This document shows, piece after piece, positions 38,544 to 46,172 of a stretch of DNA of 64,000 bases. Position 1 is the first letter of the stretch. Each line of letters begins with the position of its first letter. This stretch comes from Atopobiaceae bacterium (GTDB lineage: Bacteria; Actinomycetota; Coriobacteriia; Coriobacteriales; Atopobiaceae). Both the position numbers and the translations under genes were made by a program. The notes under the pieces were generated by a model that saw only the letters and a list, made by a program, of their open reading frames with translations, searched no databases and was not told where the DNA came from. The stretch is from NCBI GenBank assembly GCA_022483015.1, contig JAKVOB010000001.1, positions 1,016,902-1,080,901 on the forward strand. The letters run 5' to 3'.

Positions 38544-39332
38544 CTATCGTGCCTGCGTGCCATGGAGGTCGTACTTGGTCACGACATGCTCGATCCTGCG
38601 GTGCCAGGGCGCCCAGATGAGCGCGAGGAACCCCACGGTCGAGATGCCGTGCAGCAGGTCCCAGGGCAGTGCCGTGGCAAAGGTCGCGAGCGTTCCCTCG
38701 AGCGTGAGGGGCCTCACCCATCCCACCACGGAGTATCCGTTCAGGATGAGCCCATAGAGCAGGCACGAGCAGAACCCGAAGGCATAGATGACGCCGCGTC
38801 GTGAGAGGAGGCCGCGGTCCTGCAGCATGCCGGCGAGGTAGCCGATGAGGCCCCAGGCGTACATCTGCCAAGGCGTCCAGGACCCCTGTCCGAAGAAGGC
38901 GTTCGAGGCCAGCGCCGCGAGAGCCCCCACCATGAAGCCGTTACGTCGTCCCAGCACGGCACCGGCCACGATGCAGATCGCCGTGAGCGGCTTCACGTCG
39001 GGCACGGCGGCGAACAGGAGCCGTCCCGCACAGGCCACGGCGGCGAGCACCACGGTGGGCATGATCTGTCGGATGGTCGGTCGCGAGCTCTCGTAGCTGG
39101 CGGCCATGAGGCCGAGTGCCACCACGACCACCCCGAGGCTCAGGGCTGCCGAGGCCTCGACATCCGCTGCTGCGCAGGCCACGAGGACCACGGGCACCGC
39201 CACGAGGGCGGGTGCCTCGAGGCGCGCGAGGGTGCGCGAGATGGCCGTCGGGGGTGTGGACGCCTGAGCTGCCACCGCCGTGGTCTCGCGGCTCTCTGTG
39301 TTCTTCTCGTCCGTGGAAGTGGTACTAACCAT
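38544..39332 (-). CDS. ECF transporter substrate-binding (S) component
   Basis: A 262-residue membrane protein. A Thr/Ala-rich N-terminus (1-35) precedes six hydrophobic helices with SNAFFGQGSWTPWQMYAWGLIGYLAGML, the conserved loop of ECF S components. It is the last gene of a leftward series (metF, activation domain, metH, ecfT, ecfA, ecfS) and overlaps the ATPase gene by eight bases. The substrate is not readable from sequence alone. Coupling to B12-dependent methionine synthase makes a corrinoid the leading guess; cobalt, or another vitamin, is possible. Confidence 0.85.
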   Translation of the reverse strand: MVSTTSTDEKNTESRETTAVAAQASTPPTAISRTLARLEAPALVAVPVVLVACAAADVEASAALSLGVVVVALGLMAASYESSRPTIRQIMPTVVLAAVACAGRLLFAAVPDVKPLTAICIVAGAVLGRRNGFMVGALAALASNAFFGQGSWTPWQMYAWGLIGYLAGMLQDRGLLSRRGVIYAFGFCSCLLYGLILNGYSVVGWVRPLTLEGTLATFATALPWDLLHGISTVGFLALIWAPWHRRIEHVVTKYDLHGTQAR

Positions 39333-40791
39333 TGAGGATGGTCCTCCTGAAGTAGTCGTCCGTGGCCAGCGTCGCCGTTATGCCGCCGTCGAAGAGCAGC
39401 GACGTGGTGTCGGACACCTGTCGGGCCAGCCTGAGGTCGTGGGTCGCGAGCACGATGGTGCAGCCGGCGTCGCGCCGCTCGCAGATGACCTGCGCGACGA
39501 GCGAGGCCGCCGCGTCGTCGAGACCCTTGGTGGGCTCGTCGAGCAGGAGCAGCCGTGGGCGGTGCAGGAGCAGGCGTGCCAGGGCGAGCAGCTGCTGCTG
39601 GCCGGCCGAGAGGTCGAAGGGACTGCGGTCCTCGAGGCCGCTCAGTCCCATGCGCTCGAGCATCTGCCGCCCCTCGTCCGGTCCGTGGCCGTCGTGCCCG
39701 TGCATGGGGTCGACCACGTCTGCGACCGTCTCGCCGACGAGGAGCACCTTGGGGTCCTGCGGGAGCAGCGCCTGCGACACGGCGAGCGGGTTCGTCACAC
39801 GTCCGCGAGACACACGTGTCACGCCCGCGAGCGTCAGCAGCAGCGAGGTCTTCCCACTACCGTTGCCGCCTATGATGGCATGCACGCTGCCTGAGGCGAC
39901 CGCGAGCGAGCAGTCGCGGAGGACCCAGCCTTCGTCGCGCTGGTAGCGCATCCAGACGCCGTCCATGCCCGCGGCAGCCGCGTCCCTCTCGTCCGACGTG
40001 GCGGCCGGGGCTCCCTCCCAGCGGGTCCCGGAAAGGAGGTCCGGCTCCGTCGAGAGACCGTCGAGCGAGGTGACGGGCGAGACCTGCCCATCTTCCATGC
40101 GAAGCGCCGCGGTGGCGTAGCCCACCATGGGGGCAGGGCGGTGCGTGGCCACGACCACGGTGGTCCCGAGCTCATGGTTTACACGGAAGAGCGCGTGCAG
40201 GAAGTCTCGCTCGGCCACGGGGTCGAGCATGGAGGTCGGCTCGTCGAGAAGGAGCAGGCGGGGCTGCATCGCAAGGGTCGCGGCGAGTGCGAGGACCTGC
40301 CGCTGACCTCCCGACAACGTCGCCACGCTCTGCCTGAACCAGGGCTCCATACCCAGGAAGGTGCAGGTCTCGGCCACGCGGCGATGCATCTCGGGCTCGG
40401 GCACACCCAGGTTCTCGAGGCCGAACGCCATCTCGTGCCAGACGGTGTCGCAGACCACCTGGGCGTCGGGGTCCTGGAACACATAGCCCACGAGCCGGGC
40501 GGACTCGACGGGGGAGAGCCGGCGCACGTCATGCCCCATGACGCAGACGCCACCCGTGCAGGTGCCCGCAGGCGCCACCTCAGGCTTCGCCAGCGAGAGG
40601 AGCGTCGTCTTGCCGCATCCGGTCGGGCCCGTGAGGAGGGTGAGGGATCCCTCCTCGACGTCCAGCGAGAGGTGCGAGAGGATGGGGCGCGCGACCTCAC
40701 CGTCCTGGGCGGCATAGGAGAACGAGACGTCGTGGAAGGCGAGGGCCGGTGCGGTGGCAGCTGAGGCCTCGGTGGGGGCTATCGACTCCAA
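39325..40791 (-). CDS. ECF transporter double ATPase (EcfA-EcfA fused)
   Basis: A 488-residue cytoplasmic protein with two complete ABC ATPase domains. The first (about 10-250) has Walker A GPTGCGKTT, signature LSGGQRQVLALAA and DEPTSMLDP. The second (about 265-485) has GGNGSGKTS, LSAGQQQLLALAR and DEPTKGLDD. This is the fused form of EcfA1/EcfA2 found in group I and solitary ECF systems. It starts 13 bases inside the end of ecfT and its end overlaps ecfS, so all three are co-translated. It powers the S-component/T-component importer. Confidence 0.93.
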   Translation of the reverse strand: MESIAPTEASAATAPALAFHDVSFSYAAQDGEVARPILSHLSLDVEEGSLTLLTGPTGCGKTTLLSLAKPEVAPAGTCTGGVCVMGHDVRRLSPVESARLVGYVFQDPDAQVVCDTVWHEMAFGLENLGVPEPEMHRRVAETCTFLGMEPWFRQSVATLSGGQRQVLALAATLAMQPRLLLLDEPTSMLDPVAERDFLHALFRVNHELGTTVVVATHRPAPMVGYATAALRMEDGQVSPVTSLDGLSTEPDLLSGTRWEGAPAATSDERDAAAAGMDGVWMRYQRDEGWVLRDCSLAVASGSVHAIIGGNGSGKTSLLLTLAGVTRVSRGRVTNPLAVSQALLPQDPKVLLVGETVADVVDPMHGHDGHGPDEGRQMLERMGLSGLEDRSPFDLSAGQQQLLALARLLLHRPRLLLLDEPTKGLDDAAASLVAQVICERRDAGCTIVLATHDLRLARQVSDTTSLLFDGGITATLATDDYFRRTILNG

Positions 40792-41654
40792 CGGATGCGC
40801 CCCCCGAGGTCAAGGGCGGTGGGCAGGCCCGCGAGCAGGGTGGCCGGCAGGTAGGACCACCACGGGCCTAGGGTGCCCATCATGGGATAGAACGAGAAGC
40901 CCATCATGCGGGTGCAGGTGGTCAGCAGCGCGAGCGTGACCAGGGCCGCGAGGCACGCCACGGCCGCAAGGTCCCGTCGTCCGAAGCGGGTCGGCTGCCA
41001 GCTCGTGCGCAGCGCTCCCGACTCCCAGCCGCGGGCGCGCATGACGTCGGCGCACACGACGGAGTCCTCGAGCGACCAGGCCATGAGGGTGGTCGTGCGC
41101 CGTGCCCCGGCGGCCACACGAGCGCGCATGCTGGTCGGGACCGTACCTGAGCAGGCCAGCTCGCACGAGCGCATCAGACGTCCGCGACGCAGGAGTTGCG
41201 GTATGAGGCGAGCCGTCATGGAGGCCATGACGGTGATGGTGGGGAGCGTGCGGCCCGAGAGGGTCATGAGCCGGTCGGGCGCGAGCATGCGCCCACCGAC
41301 GCCCACCCAGAGGAACACGGCCGCGAGCATCGTCCCCATGCAGGCTCCGTAGGCGAGGCTCTCGAGGTAGATGGGATGATTCCAGACCCAGGCGAGCACG
41401 GTCGAGCCACGGGTCGAGAAGGCCGGGTTCAGGAGGCAGACGAGCAGCAGCCACGGCAGCAGCTGGCGGAGCGAGCGCGCCGTGGCCTTGCTGCCGCGCA
41501 AGGCGAGCGAGGCGGCAATCGCTCCCGCCAGCGAGATGGCTGCACAGACCGGCTCGAGCGCGAGCATCGAGCAGGCGAGCTCGCCCACAAGGTAGACGAG
41601 CGGCACGACCGCATGGGCCGTCTCGAAGGGGGCATGTCGGGCGGATGCGATCAT
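40779..41654 (-). CDS. ECF transporter transmembrane (T) component
   Basis: A 291-residue integral membrane protein with about six helices. The cytoplasmic coupling helix contains the Ala-Arg-Gly motif (ADVMRARGWES), the signature of EcfT that docks to the ATPases. The real start is ATG 41654, which overlaps the metH stop in ATGA; a longer frame upstream is a shadow of metH. It is the link between the ATPase pair and the S component in the same operon. Dedicated T component with its own ATPases implies a self-standing (group I) ECF system. Confidence 0.92.
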   Translation of the reverse strand: MIASARHAPFETAHAVVPLVYLVGELACSMLALEPVCAAISLAGAIAASLALRGSKATARSLRQLLPWLLLVCLLNPAFSTRGSTVLAWVWNHPIYLESLAYGACMGTMLAAVFLWVGVGGRMLAPDRLMTLSGRTLPTITVMASMTARLIPQLLRRGRLMRSCELACSGTVPTSMRARVAAGARRTTTLMAWSLEDSVVCADVMRARGWESGALRTSWQPTRFGRRDLAAVACLAALVTLALLTTCTRMMGFSFYPMMGTLGPWWSYLPATLLAGLPTALDLGGRIRWSR

Positions 41655-44140
41655 GCCTGGCCCAGCACCTCGCCGGCGATGCGTGCGGACTCCGCGGCGT
41701 CCTTGGCGTAGAAGTCGGCCCCGACCATCTTGGCGTACTCGGGGTTGAGCACGGCTCCGCCCACCATGACCTTGCACGCGGGTGCCTGCTCGCGGAGCAG
41801 GGCGATGGTGTCTGCCATGGCGGGCACGGTGGTGGTCATGAGCGCCGAGAGGCCGGCCAGGCGGATGTCGTGGGCCACGACGCAGTCCACGAAGGTCTGG
41901 GGCTCCACGTCGCGCCCGAGGTCGTAGACCTGGTAGCCATAGTTCTCGAGGAGCATGCGCACGATGTTCTTGCCGATGTCATGGATGTCTCCCTTGACCG
42001 TGCAGAGCGCGATGGCCCCCTTGCTGGGGGCGGCTTCCGCACCGGCATGGTCGCGGATGGTCGAGAAGCCGGCCTTGGCCGCCTCGGCCGAGGCCATGAG
42101 CTGGGGGAGGAAGAAGGTGCCCTTCTCGAACCGCTCGCCCACCTCGTCCAGGGCCGGGATCAGCACGTCATCGATGACCTGCATGGCATCCATGGTCTCG
42201 AGCAGGCGGCCGACGACGCCGGCCATGGGCTCGCGCCTGCCCTCGAGCACCAGTCGACGGGCGAGGTCCTCGGGCGGCAGGTCTGCGGCAGGTCCCCCGT
42301 CGCCTGTGCCGCTGGCCGTGGTCGTACGTGCCGACGTCCGGGTGGCCGTGCGCCCCGCATAGGCCTCGATGAAGTGACCGGCACCCACATCCTCGCCGTT
42401 CAGCACGCGCCATGAGGCGATCGCGTCCATGAGGCGCTCGTTGGTGGGGTTCATGATGGCGAGGTCGAGACCGGCCTGGAAGGCGGCCGTGAGGAAGGTC
42501 GCGTTCAGGAGCTCGCGGAAGGGCAGGCCGAAGCTCACGTTCGAGACGCCCAGCACGCATCGCACGCCGGCGACCTCGTGCTTCACGAGCTCGATCGACC
42601 GCAGGGTCTCGCAGCCGGCCTGCTGGTCGGTCGAGACGGCCATCGTGAGGCAGTCGATGGCCACGTCGGAGCGAGGGATGCCTGCCTCGTCGGTGGCCGA
42701 GACGATGCGTCGGGCCACGTCGAGGCGGCCCTCGGCGGTCGCGGGGATGCCGGTCTCGTCCAGAGTGAGGCCCACGAGGCAGCAGCCGTAGTGGCGGGCG
42801 ATGGGCACGATGGTGGCGAGGCTCTCCGCGCGACCGTTGCACGAGTTGATGATGGGCTTGCCGGGATAGCTCCTCACGGCGGCCTCCACGGCGAGCGGGT
42901 CTGCCGAGTCGACCTGGAGGGGCAGGGCGGTGACGCCCTGGACCTGCTCGACCAGCTGCACGAGGCAGGCAGGCTCGTCGAGCTCGGGAAGGCCGGCGTT
43001 CACGTCGAGTGCCTGGGCGCCGGCCGTGGTCTGCGCGATCGCCTCGCCCATGATGTAGTCGTGGTCGCCCGAGCGCAGGGCCTCCTTGAGGCGTCGCTTC
43101 CCGGTGGGGTTGATGCGCTCGCCGATGACGCCCACCTGGCCGGGCTCCAAGGCGAGCATCCCCTGCGCGCTCGTCGCCGTGAAGGCGTCGGCGCGCGCTC
43201 GTGGCGCTGGCGTGCGGCCGGCGAGAAGGTCCTTCTCGCCGGCGATGTAGGCAGGTGTGGTGCCGCAGCAGCCGCCGATGATGGTGACGCCGGCGTCGAG
43301 CATGCCGGCCACGGCGGCACAGTAGTCGCTGATGCCAACGGAATAGGTCGTGGCACCGTCGACCACGTGCGGGAGCCCCGCGTTGGCCTGGACCATCACG
43401 GGACAGGTCGCCCAGGGGAGCATGCGACGTACCAGGGGTGCCACGTCGTCGGGGCCGAGCGAGCAGTTGATGCCGAGCGCATCCACGCCGAGGGCCGACA
43501 GGGTCACGGCGGCGATCTCGGGCGTGGTGCCCAGGAAGGTGCGGCCGTCCTCGCCGAAGGTCATCGTGCAGAGGATGGGCAGGTCGGAGTTCTCCTTGCA
43601 GGCGAGCACCGCAGCCTTGGTCTCGGCCAGGTCGGCCATGGTCTCGATGGCGAACAGGTCGGCACCGGCGGCATCGGCCGCGAGGGCCTGCTCGGCAAAG
43701 AGGTCGTAGGCCTCGTCGAAGGACATCGTTCCCAACGGTCGCAGGAGCGAGCCCGTGGGCCCGATGTCGGCAGCCACGTAGCGTGGGTGCGCGGCGCGCG
43801 CGCAGGCGACGGCCGCCGAGAAAATCTCTGTCACGGTCGCGGCGCCGGCGAGCTTGGCCGCGTTGGCGCCGAAGGTGTTGGCACTCACGACCTCTGATCC
43901 GGCAGCGACATAGGCGGCATGGACCTTGGTGACCACCTCGGGGTGCGTGAGGTTCAGGAGCTCAGGCAGGGCCCCCGCCTCGAGGCCGGCAGCTTGGAGC
44001 TGCGTTCCCATGGCGCCGTCGAAGAGGAGGAAGTCCTCTCCTGCCAGGACGCGGGCCAGGTGCTCGTCCCGGGTGCGGACGTGGCGGGGGCGAAGGTGGC
44101 CCTCAGGGGCATGAATGGAGATCGAGCTGGTCTTATCCAC
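41651..44140 (-). CDS. metH: Cobalamin-dependent methionine synthase lacking the activation domain
   Basis: An 829-residue protein. Domains: homocysteine-binding zinc barrel (GINCSLGPDD, then IGGCCGTTP with the Cys pair) at ~20-320; pterin-binding barrel (VGVIGERINPTG, DVNAGLP, NSCNGR) at ~325-600; B12 cap and binding (DIHDIGKN, the His-on ligand, at ~715) to the end. It stops before the SAM-dependent activation domain, which is the separate gene immediately upstream. GTG 44140 is chosen because it has GGAAGGA six bases upstream and overlaps the previous stop; an ATG 39 bases earlier is weaker. The stop overlaps ecfT. Confidence 0.95.
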   Translation of the reverse strand: MDKTSSISIHAPEGHLRPRHVRTRDEHLARVLAGEDFLLFDGAMGTQLQAAGLEAGALPELLNLTHPEVVTKVHAAYVAAGSEVVSANTFGANAAKLAGAATVTEIFSAAVACARAAHPRYVAADIGPTGSLLRPLGTMSFDEAYDLFAEQALAADAAGADLFAIETMADLAETKAAVLACKENSDLPILCTMTFGEDGRTFLGTTPEIAAVTLSALGVDALGINCSLGPDDVAPLVRRMLPWATCPVMVQANAGLPHVVDGATTYSVGISDYCAAVAGMLDAGVTIIGGCCGTTPAYIAGEKDLLAGRTPAPRARADAFTATSAQGMLALEPGQVGVIGERINPTGKRRLKEALRSGDHDYIMGEAIAQTTAGAQALDVNAGLPELDEPACLVQLVEQVQGVTALPLQVDSADPLAVEAAVRSYPGKPIINSCNGRAESLATIVPIARHYGCCLVGLTLDETGIPATAEGRLDVARRIVSATDEAGIPRSDVAIDCLTMAVSTDQQAGCETLRSIELVKHEVAGVRCVLGVSNVSFGLPFRELLNATFLTAAFQAGLDLAIMNPTNERLMDAIASWRVLNGEDVGAGHFIEAYAGRTATRTSARTTTASGTGDGGPAADLPPEDLARRLVLEGRREPMAGVVGRLLETMDAMQVIDDVLIPALDEVGERFEKGTFFLPQLMASAEAAKAGFSTIRDHAGAEAAPSKGAIALCTVKGDIHDIGKNIVRMLLENYGYQVYDLGRDVEPQTFVDCVVAHDIRLAGLSALMTTTVPAMADTIALLREQAPACKVMVGGAVLNPEYAKMVGADFYAKDAAESARIAGEVLGQA

Positions 44141-44831
44141 GGCAGGTCCTTCCGGTGGGGCGGATGGTGCAGAAGTCATGGCAGTGGCACTTGTCGCACA
44201 GGCACAGCTCCCGCGTGCGCGGGGCCGTGAAGAGGCCGCAGACGGCGGTCACGCTCTTGGTCGGCACGAGCAGGCTCGAGGCCGTGAGCGTGAGGCCCAG
44301 GCCCCGTCCCGCGTCCAGGCAGGCGAGCAGGGGCCGCTGGGCGTCGAGCGGGAGGTCGCCGTAGCCGGGGCTGTAACGGGCGTTCAGGAAGAGCCCCCGT
44401 CGGTCCGCCTCGGCGACGAGCCGTGCCTCGCAGGCATCGGCGGCGCGCTCCACCAGGGTCGTGGCGCAGGCGTCGAGAAGGACCTGTCCCAGGGCATCGG
44501 TGAGCGAGAGACGCCTGAGCTCCTGGTCCACGCCAGCGCCGAGGGTCACGGCCATCACGCCCACGGCGCAGGCACCCTCGAGGTGGTGGGCGATGTCGGC
44601 CCCCTCGAGACCGAGGGTCGTGCCGACCAGGCAGAGGCGCCCCGGGACGGAGGCAGCGTCGTCGACGTCGAAGACGCGCCAGGCTCCCGAGGGACGGGCC
44701 TGCGCGAGGCAGGCGGCCATGGCAGCGTCAAGCCGATCGTCGAGGTCATCGGACAGCTCCTGGCCATGGTGACCCAGGTAGCGGAGGACCTCGGCGCGGT
44801 CTATCGAGTCGATGTCGAAGCGCTCGGTCAA
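44133..44831 (-). CDS. Methionine synthase reactivation domain as a separate protein
   Basis: A 232-residue homologue of the MetH C-terminal activation domain. It has the long helical arm and core motif RGLFLNARYSPGYGDLPL (the RxxxRxxPGYG type motif that binds SAM) and a Cys-rich C-terminus (CLCDKCHCHDFC) that may bind a metal or cluster. Start is TTG 44831, five bases after the metF stop. It would re-methylate cob(II)alamin on MetH using SAM and an electron donor. Splitting of this domain from MetH occurs in several anaerobes. The Cys cluster is extra to most MetH and could supply the electrons. Confidence 0.8.
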   Translation of the reverse strand: MTERFDIDSIDRAEVLRYLGHHGQELSDDLDDRLDAAMAACLAQARPSGAWRVFDVDDAASVPGRLCLVGTTLGLEGADIAHHLEGACAVGVMAVTLGAGVDQELRRLSLTDALGQVLLDACATTLVERAADACEARLVAEADRRGLFLNARYSPGYGDLPLDAQRPLLACLDAGRGLGLTLTASSLLVPTKSVTAVCGLFTAPRTRELCLCDKCHCHDFCTIRPTGRTCRG

Positions 44832-44836
44832 ACGGC

Positions 44837-45706
44837 TCAGGCCTTGAGGTAGCCCGAGGCCAGGAGGGCCGCGTGGGCGGCGTGGGCCACCTCGGGCTTG
44901 TTCATGGTGTAGACGTGCACGCCGTCGACACCGTTCTCGCCGAGGTCGCAGAGCTGGTCGCAGGCATAGTCGATGCCGGCCTCGCGCATGGCGGCCGTGT
45001 CGTCGCCCACGCTCACGAGGCGCTTGATGACGCGCGAGGGGATGGTGGCGCCGCAGGTGAACGCCATGCGCTGGATCTGCTTGACGCTCGTGAACGGCAT
45101 GATGCCGCAGACCACGGGGACCTTGATGCGAGCCTTGTCGCAGGCCTCCCTGAAGCGGTAGTAGTACTCGTTGTCGAAGAAGAGCTGGCTCACGAGGAAG
45201 TCGACGCCGGCATCCTGCTTGGCCTTGAGGTGCTCCATGGAGCGCGAGAAGTCCTCGCACTCGACGTGGCCCTCGGGATAGCAGGCTCCGCCCACGCAGA
45301 GGTCGGGAGCGGTCGCCTTGAGGTAGGCGATGAGGTCGGTGGCATGCGAGAAGTCGACTGGGGGCCGCCCCGGGACATGGTCGCCGCGCAGGGCCAGCAC
45401 GTTCTCCACCCCTGAGCGCCTGAGCTCGGCGGCATAGGCGTCGACATCCGCCCTGGTGGCTCCCATGCAGGTGAAGTGGGCGAGTGCCGTGAGGTCGAGC
45501 TCCGACTGGAGGCGCCGTGCGATGGCTGGGGTGTTCTCGGACGACCCCGACCCCCCTGCCGAGAAGGTCACCGAGACGTAGTCGGGCCGGTCGCGGGTGA
45601 GCTCGCCTGCGATGGCGAGGGCCTGGTCGACGGACAGCTCCCCCTTGGGAGGGAAGATCTCGAACGAGAAGGTCTGCTTGTGTATGAGCATGTCTGAGAT
45701 CTTCAT
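44837..45706 (-). CDS. metF: 5,10-methylenetetrahydrofolate reductase (second copy)
   Basis: A 289-residue MetF of the same length as the first, beginning FSFEIFPPKGE with the catalytic Glu, plus VTFSAGGSG, LALRGDH, YPEGHVE and SQLFFDNEYYYRF. Only moderately similar to the metE-linked copy. Five bases before the split activation-domain gene, it is the first gene of the B12-dependent methionine/ECF operon. ATG 45706 is preceded by GAGAGGT. It makes the methyl-THF for MetH. No separate electron-donor subunit is encoded beside it. Confidence 0.94.
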   Translation of the reverse strand: MKISDMLIHKQTFSFEIFPPKGELSVDQALAIAGELTRDRPDYVSVTFSAGGSGSSENTPAIARRLQSELDLTALAHFTCMGATRADVDAYAAELRRSGVENVLALRGDHVPGRPPVDFSHATDLIAYLKATAPDLCVGGACYPEGHVECEDFSRSMEHLKAKQDAGVDFLVSQLFFDNEYYYRFREACDKARIKVPVVCGIMPFTSVKQIQRMAFTCGATIPSRVIKRLVSVGDDTAAMREAGIDYACDQLCDLGENGVDGVHVYTMNKPEVAHAAHAALLASGYLKA

Positions 45707-45815
45707 TGATGCACCTCTCGGAATCGGTCATGCCGACGGTGGACCAGCTGTTTGGGACAGTGTAGGCGATATGGGGCGGAGAGCGGGGCGGCACAGGTGC
45801 CCGCACGGCTGCGAC

Positions 45816-46172
45816 CTAGAGGTTCCTCTCGCCCCAGTCGCGCAGCTCCATGAGGATGGGGACGAGGCTCCGTGCCGTGGGCGTGAGGCTGTACTCCACG
45901 CGCACGGGCATCTCGTCGTACTGGCGCCGCATCACGAGCCCGTCAGCCTCGAGCTCCTTGAGCGAGCTTGCGAGCATGGTGTTGGTGATGCCGTAGACCA
46001 TGCGCCGCAGCTCCCCGTAGCGTAGCTCGTCCGCCTGGTCCAAGGCGCAGATCAGGAGGATCTTCCACTTGCCGCCCACGGCGTCGAGGACGCGGCGCAG
46101 CGCGCACCCGGGTCCTGCGATGGCAGGCTCGGCACTCTTCAGGCAGGGCGATATGTCTCGTGTGCCGCTCAC
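45816..46172 (-). CDS. HxlR-family transcriptional regulator
   Basis: A 118-residue winged-helix protein. The N-terminal CLKSAEPAIAGPGCALRRVLDAVGGKWKILLICAL and the wing EYSLTPTARSLVPILMEL are typical of HxlR. The two early Cys could be redox-active, as in aldehyde- or thiol-responsive relatives. The start is GTG 46172 with an excellent AAGGAG. Divergent from a thioredoxin gene with an operator in between, so it probably regulates thioredoxin and itself in response to electrophile or disulfide stress. Confidence 0.9.
   Translation of the reverse strand: MSGTRDISPCLKSAEPAIAGPGCALRRVLDAVGGKWKILLICALDQADELRYGELRRMVYGITNTMLASSLKELEADGLVMRRQYDEMPVRVEYSLTPTARSLVPILMELRDWGERNL

Follow-up and report, generated by a model that had tools for sequence, protein, structure and literature searches.

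A CbrUVT-type ECF importer, predicted to carry corrinoids, in one operon with methionine synthase genes of an Atopobiaceae bacterium

In the genome of a gut-type actinobacterium of the Atopobiaceae, the genes for an ECF transporter directly follow those for methylenetetrahydrofolate reductase, a MetH-reactivation protein, and B12-dependent methionine synthase in a single six-gene operon, all on the minus strand. Our best reading, to which we give a probability of about 85%, is that the operon encodes a dedicated, translationally coupled importer of the CbrUVT type that feeds MetH, corrinoid binding being predicted from sequence. The transporter class is already known, and no new one is added here; what is new is the arrangement of known parts, in an operon found in one genome.

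Organization of the operon

The operon lies in a window of 64,000 nucleotides, which is the whole stretch of DNA analyzed, and its features are as follows (numbered by window position, in order of transcription).

45707..45815, minus strand: upstream intergenic region, presumed promoter site of the operon (109 bp between an hxlR-like gene and metF)
44837..45706, minus strand: metF, methylenetetrahydrofolate reductase (PF02219, E = 3e-75)
44133..44831, minus strand: separate MetH reactivation (activation-domain) protein, TTG start (PF02965, E = 4e-7, above the cut-off; PDB 1j6r, E = 3e-11)
41651..44139, minus strand: metH, B12-dependent methionine synthase with homocysteine, pterin, and two B12-binding domains (PDB methionine synthase, E = 3e-105)
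40779..41654, minus strand: EcfT-type transmembrane subunit (T), CbrV-like (family profile against EcfT 5d3m_D, E = 1.3e-18; ARG motif at residue 207)
39325..40791, minus strand: fused double ATPase A-A', CbrU-like, TTG start (two complete ABC ATPase halves)
38544..39332, minus strand: S component, CbrT-like (PF07155, E = 4e-8; CbrT 6fnp, E = 1e-16 by profile; hhalign 99.3%)

The gene order, gaps, and overlaps described in the first-pass annotation were borne out, as the coordinates match and the genes are identified by homology. A gap of 5 bp separates metF from the activation gene, the stop of which is overlapped by the GTG start of metH (44139), with GGAAGGA just upstream of the GTG. This GTG is the most likely start of metH, an in-frame ATG at 44179 being also possible. 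The stop of metH and the start of the T gene share ATGA, a 4-base overlap on the same strand, and the T/A and A/S overlaps are 13 and 8 bp, respectively. Because each of the overlapping genes is backed by homology, the overlaps are not those of chance open frames; they suggest that translation of the enzyme and the importer may be coupled.

The MetH chain ends after the B12 domain, matches solved methionine synthases in the PDB, and carries a DxHxxG motif at residue 731 (numbering of the longer form); the product of the activation gene matches Thermotoga maritima chain 1j6r. The T subunit alone matched no Pfam model, and a profile built from 17 relatives matched EcfT structures (E = 1e-18). 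The gene read earlier as ecfA does encode an ATPase with the overlaps described, but in detail its product is a single 488-aa protein in which A and A' are fused, with Walker A motifs at residues 55 and 308, LSGGQ/LSAGQ at 159 and 394, and DE at 179 and 414.

Class assignment of the S component

A single-sequence search of all PDB chains with the S component gave CbrT of Lactobacillus delbrueckii (6FNP), an S component with proven B12 binding, as the sole credible match (E = 7e-5). With a profile of 32 relatives, the same chain scored E = 1e-16 against E = 9e-4 for the next S component, 4hzu_S, which contradicts the earlier impression that S does not resemble CbrT. Profile-profile comparison, of the kind proposed earlier as a check, gave the following: hhalign matched the S profile to seven CbrT sequences with 99.3% probability (163 columns, E = 7.5e-21) and to RibU with 0.4%. 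S is about 20% identical to the short CbrT, and the conserved CbrT positions (the IP-V-P motif, N, GxGxWTxxQ, and DxxH) are kept in register. A BtuM chain is absent from the PDB profile matches of S up to E = 10, an indirect comparison with BtuM through this list. Searches of S and T against NCBIfam gave no model above the cut-off; some members of the S family match folate-family and riboflavin models weakly. The RibU riboflavin class was considered for S and rejected for lack of a profile match; a separate gene (L140) encodes the RibU-like protein of this genome.

Judged by these sequence comparisons, the S component is a member of the CbrT family of ECF S components. The transporter genes likewise have the makeup of a group I CbrUVT system, with a dedicated T and a fused AA' beside S in the order T-AA'-S. 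The same order occurs in systems already named CbrV-CbrU-CbrT, which speaks against the first-pass suggestion of a possible new S-component class. T-AA'-S is linked to B12 genes by metH in its own operon and, in most relatives, by a gene for DUF4430, which we take to be a transcobalamin-like domain.

An AlphaFold model of S (pLDDT 86, pTM 0.83) shows the S-component fold from approximately residue 79. Solved S components align with it at Z scores of 10 to 15 over residues 79 to 255, and the predicted structure confirms an S-component fold. The scores of the S classes in this list, from which 6fnp is absent, differ by just a few Z units, and the comparison does not separate the classes. Two more hydrophobic helices precede the fold (residues 30-82), corresponding to 60 extra N-terminal residues compared with the short CbrT.

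B12-related genes and regulation in the genome

MetH is the single protein found in the genome with PF02310, the common B12-binding domain; the search covered B12 enzymes that carry this domain, which NrdJ, for example, lacks. Targeted searches of the genome found no DUF4430 and no FecCD (BtuC-type permease) above the cut-off, with one sub-threshold match to the latter. One TP_methylase-family gene is present, assigned by family alone, so a corrin-ring pathway of the usual kind does not appear to be encoded. The genome also holds two other EcfT genes and a RibU-like S component.

B12-independent methionine synthase is encoded as well: metE (25489-23204, minus strand) lies 13 kb from the operon and overlaps a second metF (23207-22338, minus strand) that is 43% identical to the metF of the operon. 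The metE-metF pair and the metH operon therefore make up B12-free and B12-using routes, each with its own MetF.

No cobalamin riboswitch was found in a search of the genome, and an Rfam search of the window gave no match. Upstream of metF, a permissive scan returned just a sub-threshold miRNA match, taken as chance, and a promoter scan found no sigma-70-like site. An HxlR-type regulator gene (45816-46172, minus strand) precedes metF in the same orientation, at a distance of 109 bp, and may regulate the operon.

Relatives and the position of metH

The S gene is present in 161 of 199 Coriobacteriales genomes, in genera including Olsenella, Collinsella, Gordonibacter, Eggerthella, and Adlercreutzia, normally as T-A-S. 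A DUF4430 gene directly precedes T in 51 of 72 genome-contig loci and in 17 of 20 loci from family and order relatives; judged by record title, Collinsella accounts for 17 of the 21 genome-contig loci that have no DUF4430 before T. In several plasmid records from lactobacilli and enterococci, genes for CbrT and DUF4430 occur with genes for B12-dependent ribonucleotide reductase, and some of these plasmids carry adenosyltransferase genes with CbrT too.

Many Coriobacteriia T-A-S loci have upstream genes for large surface-type proteins that combine DUF4430 with bacterial Ig-like or beta-propeller domains (L050:89-5821, L034:1-6579, and L076:4504-6774). A signal-peptide-like protein (L077:4280-6637) has weak DUF4430 and alpha-alpha toroid matches, both near or below the cut-off, a combination reminiscent of the two domains of transcobalamin. 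In Olsenella phocaeensis (L035, 4446-9119), a tandem pair of T-A precedes a single S, a possible duplication of the energizing module.

Across the order (199 genomes), S and MetH occur together in 134 genomes, S only in 27, MetH only in 18, and neither in 20; within the family the numbers are 36, 3, 3, and 15, all of these being raw counts that ignore kinship. Reading by eye, we found metH and S at most 10 kb apart in six genomes among those with both. The tandem of metH and importer in the present genome was not seen in any other genome sampled. The two are convergent 17 bp apart in G007 and G146 and approximately 1.1 kb apart in G015 and G170, and metH and S are approximately 6.5 kb apart in G197. 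Such close convergent neighbors occur in two other genera, and in Olsenella profusa the convergent form has metF, the activation gene, and metH contiguous. In a relative from the same genus (G001), DUF4430 precedes T and metH is absent from the 18 kb examined. Since the tandem is seen here only and this relative has DUF4430 before T, the tandem fusion is, within the sample, confined to this lineage; since the importer stands apart from metH in most relatives, its link to MetH alone is likewise specific to this lineage. A literature search for metH together with this importer in Olsenella found none, and we know of no description of this operon arrangement.

Discussion

Good support for the first-pass proposal that the importer brings in a corrinoid for MetH comes from the family membership of its S component, from the gene neighborhoods of related loci, and from the B12-related gene content of this genome. 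In ECF transporters, the S component binds the substrate, docks on T, and topples, and ATP drives the reset. MetF would supply 5-methyl-tetrahydrofolate to a B12-dependent MetH with a separate reactivase, both judged by homology. The CbrT-like S would bind a corrinoid outside, dock on T, and topple inward as in ECF-CbrT; ATP hydrolysis by the fused AA' would reset S, and the imported corrinoid would load MetH, its presumed user. As to origin, the T-A-S operon, which stands behind DUF4430 in most relatives, probably came to lie behind metF, the activation gene, and metH in this lineage.

Several known systems share parts of this arrangement. The module of Lactobacillus plantarum plasmid pMF1298-5, named CbrV-CbrU-CbrT, has the same order of T, fused ATPase, and S, and its S is 30% identical, of similar length, and also has an N-terminal extension (PMC6722938); however, it is plasmid-borne beside DUF4430 and other cobalamin genes, whereas the present module is chromosomal and stands behind metF, the activation gene, and metH without DUF4430. 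ECF-CbrT of L. delbrueckii (6FNP), which transports cobalamin and cobinamide (PMC5997447), has a homologous S core with the same conserved residues, but it is a group II system with a 182-aa S and a common ECF module, in contrast to the dedicated module found here, the S of which has two further helices at its N terminus. Coriobacteriales operons with DUF4430 (Olsenella, Eggerthella, Gordonibacter, and others) contain orthologous T-A-S with S 49 to 67% identical, but are preceded by surface-protein genes of which this genome has none; bacterial surface proteins related to transcobalamin belong with it to the beta-grasp superfamily (PMC1796856). The split MetH of T. maritima (1j6r, 1q7m) likewise has a separate reactivase and a shortened MetH, whereas here metF, the reactivase gene, and metH are contiguous and continue into the importer.

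The present evidence does not tell cobalamin and its precursors apart as substrates. It is unlikely, in our judgment, that the importer mainly takes up a precursor such as cobinamide or cobyrinate diamide that is completed inside before use by MetH. A review does place cbrUVT under cobyrinate diamide uptake (PMC8123684), and ECF-CbrT accepts cobinamide besides cobalamin (PMC5997447); however, a search aimed at corrin-ring synthesis, as distinct from salvage, saw no sign of it in the genome, with one TP_methylase-family gene.

We consider it highly improbable that S represents a new class for another methionine-linked compound, for example, folate or a methionine precursor. Its low identity to the short CbrT, the 60-residue extension with two hydrophobic helices, the lack of an NCBIfam model above the cut-off, and the weak folate-family and riboflavin matches in some members would fit such a class, but the 163-column match to CbrT, the long members with T-AA'-S order already called CbrT, and the adjacency of relatives to DUF4430, as for CbrT, all argue for the corrinoid family. 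A chance rearrangement that left metH and T-A-S adjacent and functionally unlinked is decidedly improbable, even though the two are far apart in most relatives that have both and G001 keeps T-A-S behind DUF4430 with no metH within 18 kb: the same-strand ATGA junction, MetH as the sole B12-binding-domain protein found in the genome, and the fact that metH and importer lie no more than 10 kb apart in two other genera point to a functional connection.

Beyond the preferred reading of a dedicated importer feeding MetH, we offer tentatively a broader scheme that is rather doubtful as a whole. Group I CbrT may form an eight-helix branch in which the N-terminal hairpin receives the corrinoid from a surface DUF4430 protein in most Coriobacteriia; this species might have lost that capture protein and placed its importer with metH, so that a single importer would serve a single corrinoid enzyme under control that involves no B12 riboswitch.

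The CbrUVT-type importer occurs widely across the Coriobacteriales, a major group of the gut, mostly in association with surface proteins of transcobalamin-like type. The operon described here is compact and testable: what its transporter carries may be deduced from the neighboring genes and from a genome showing one B12-binding-domain enzyme.
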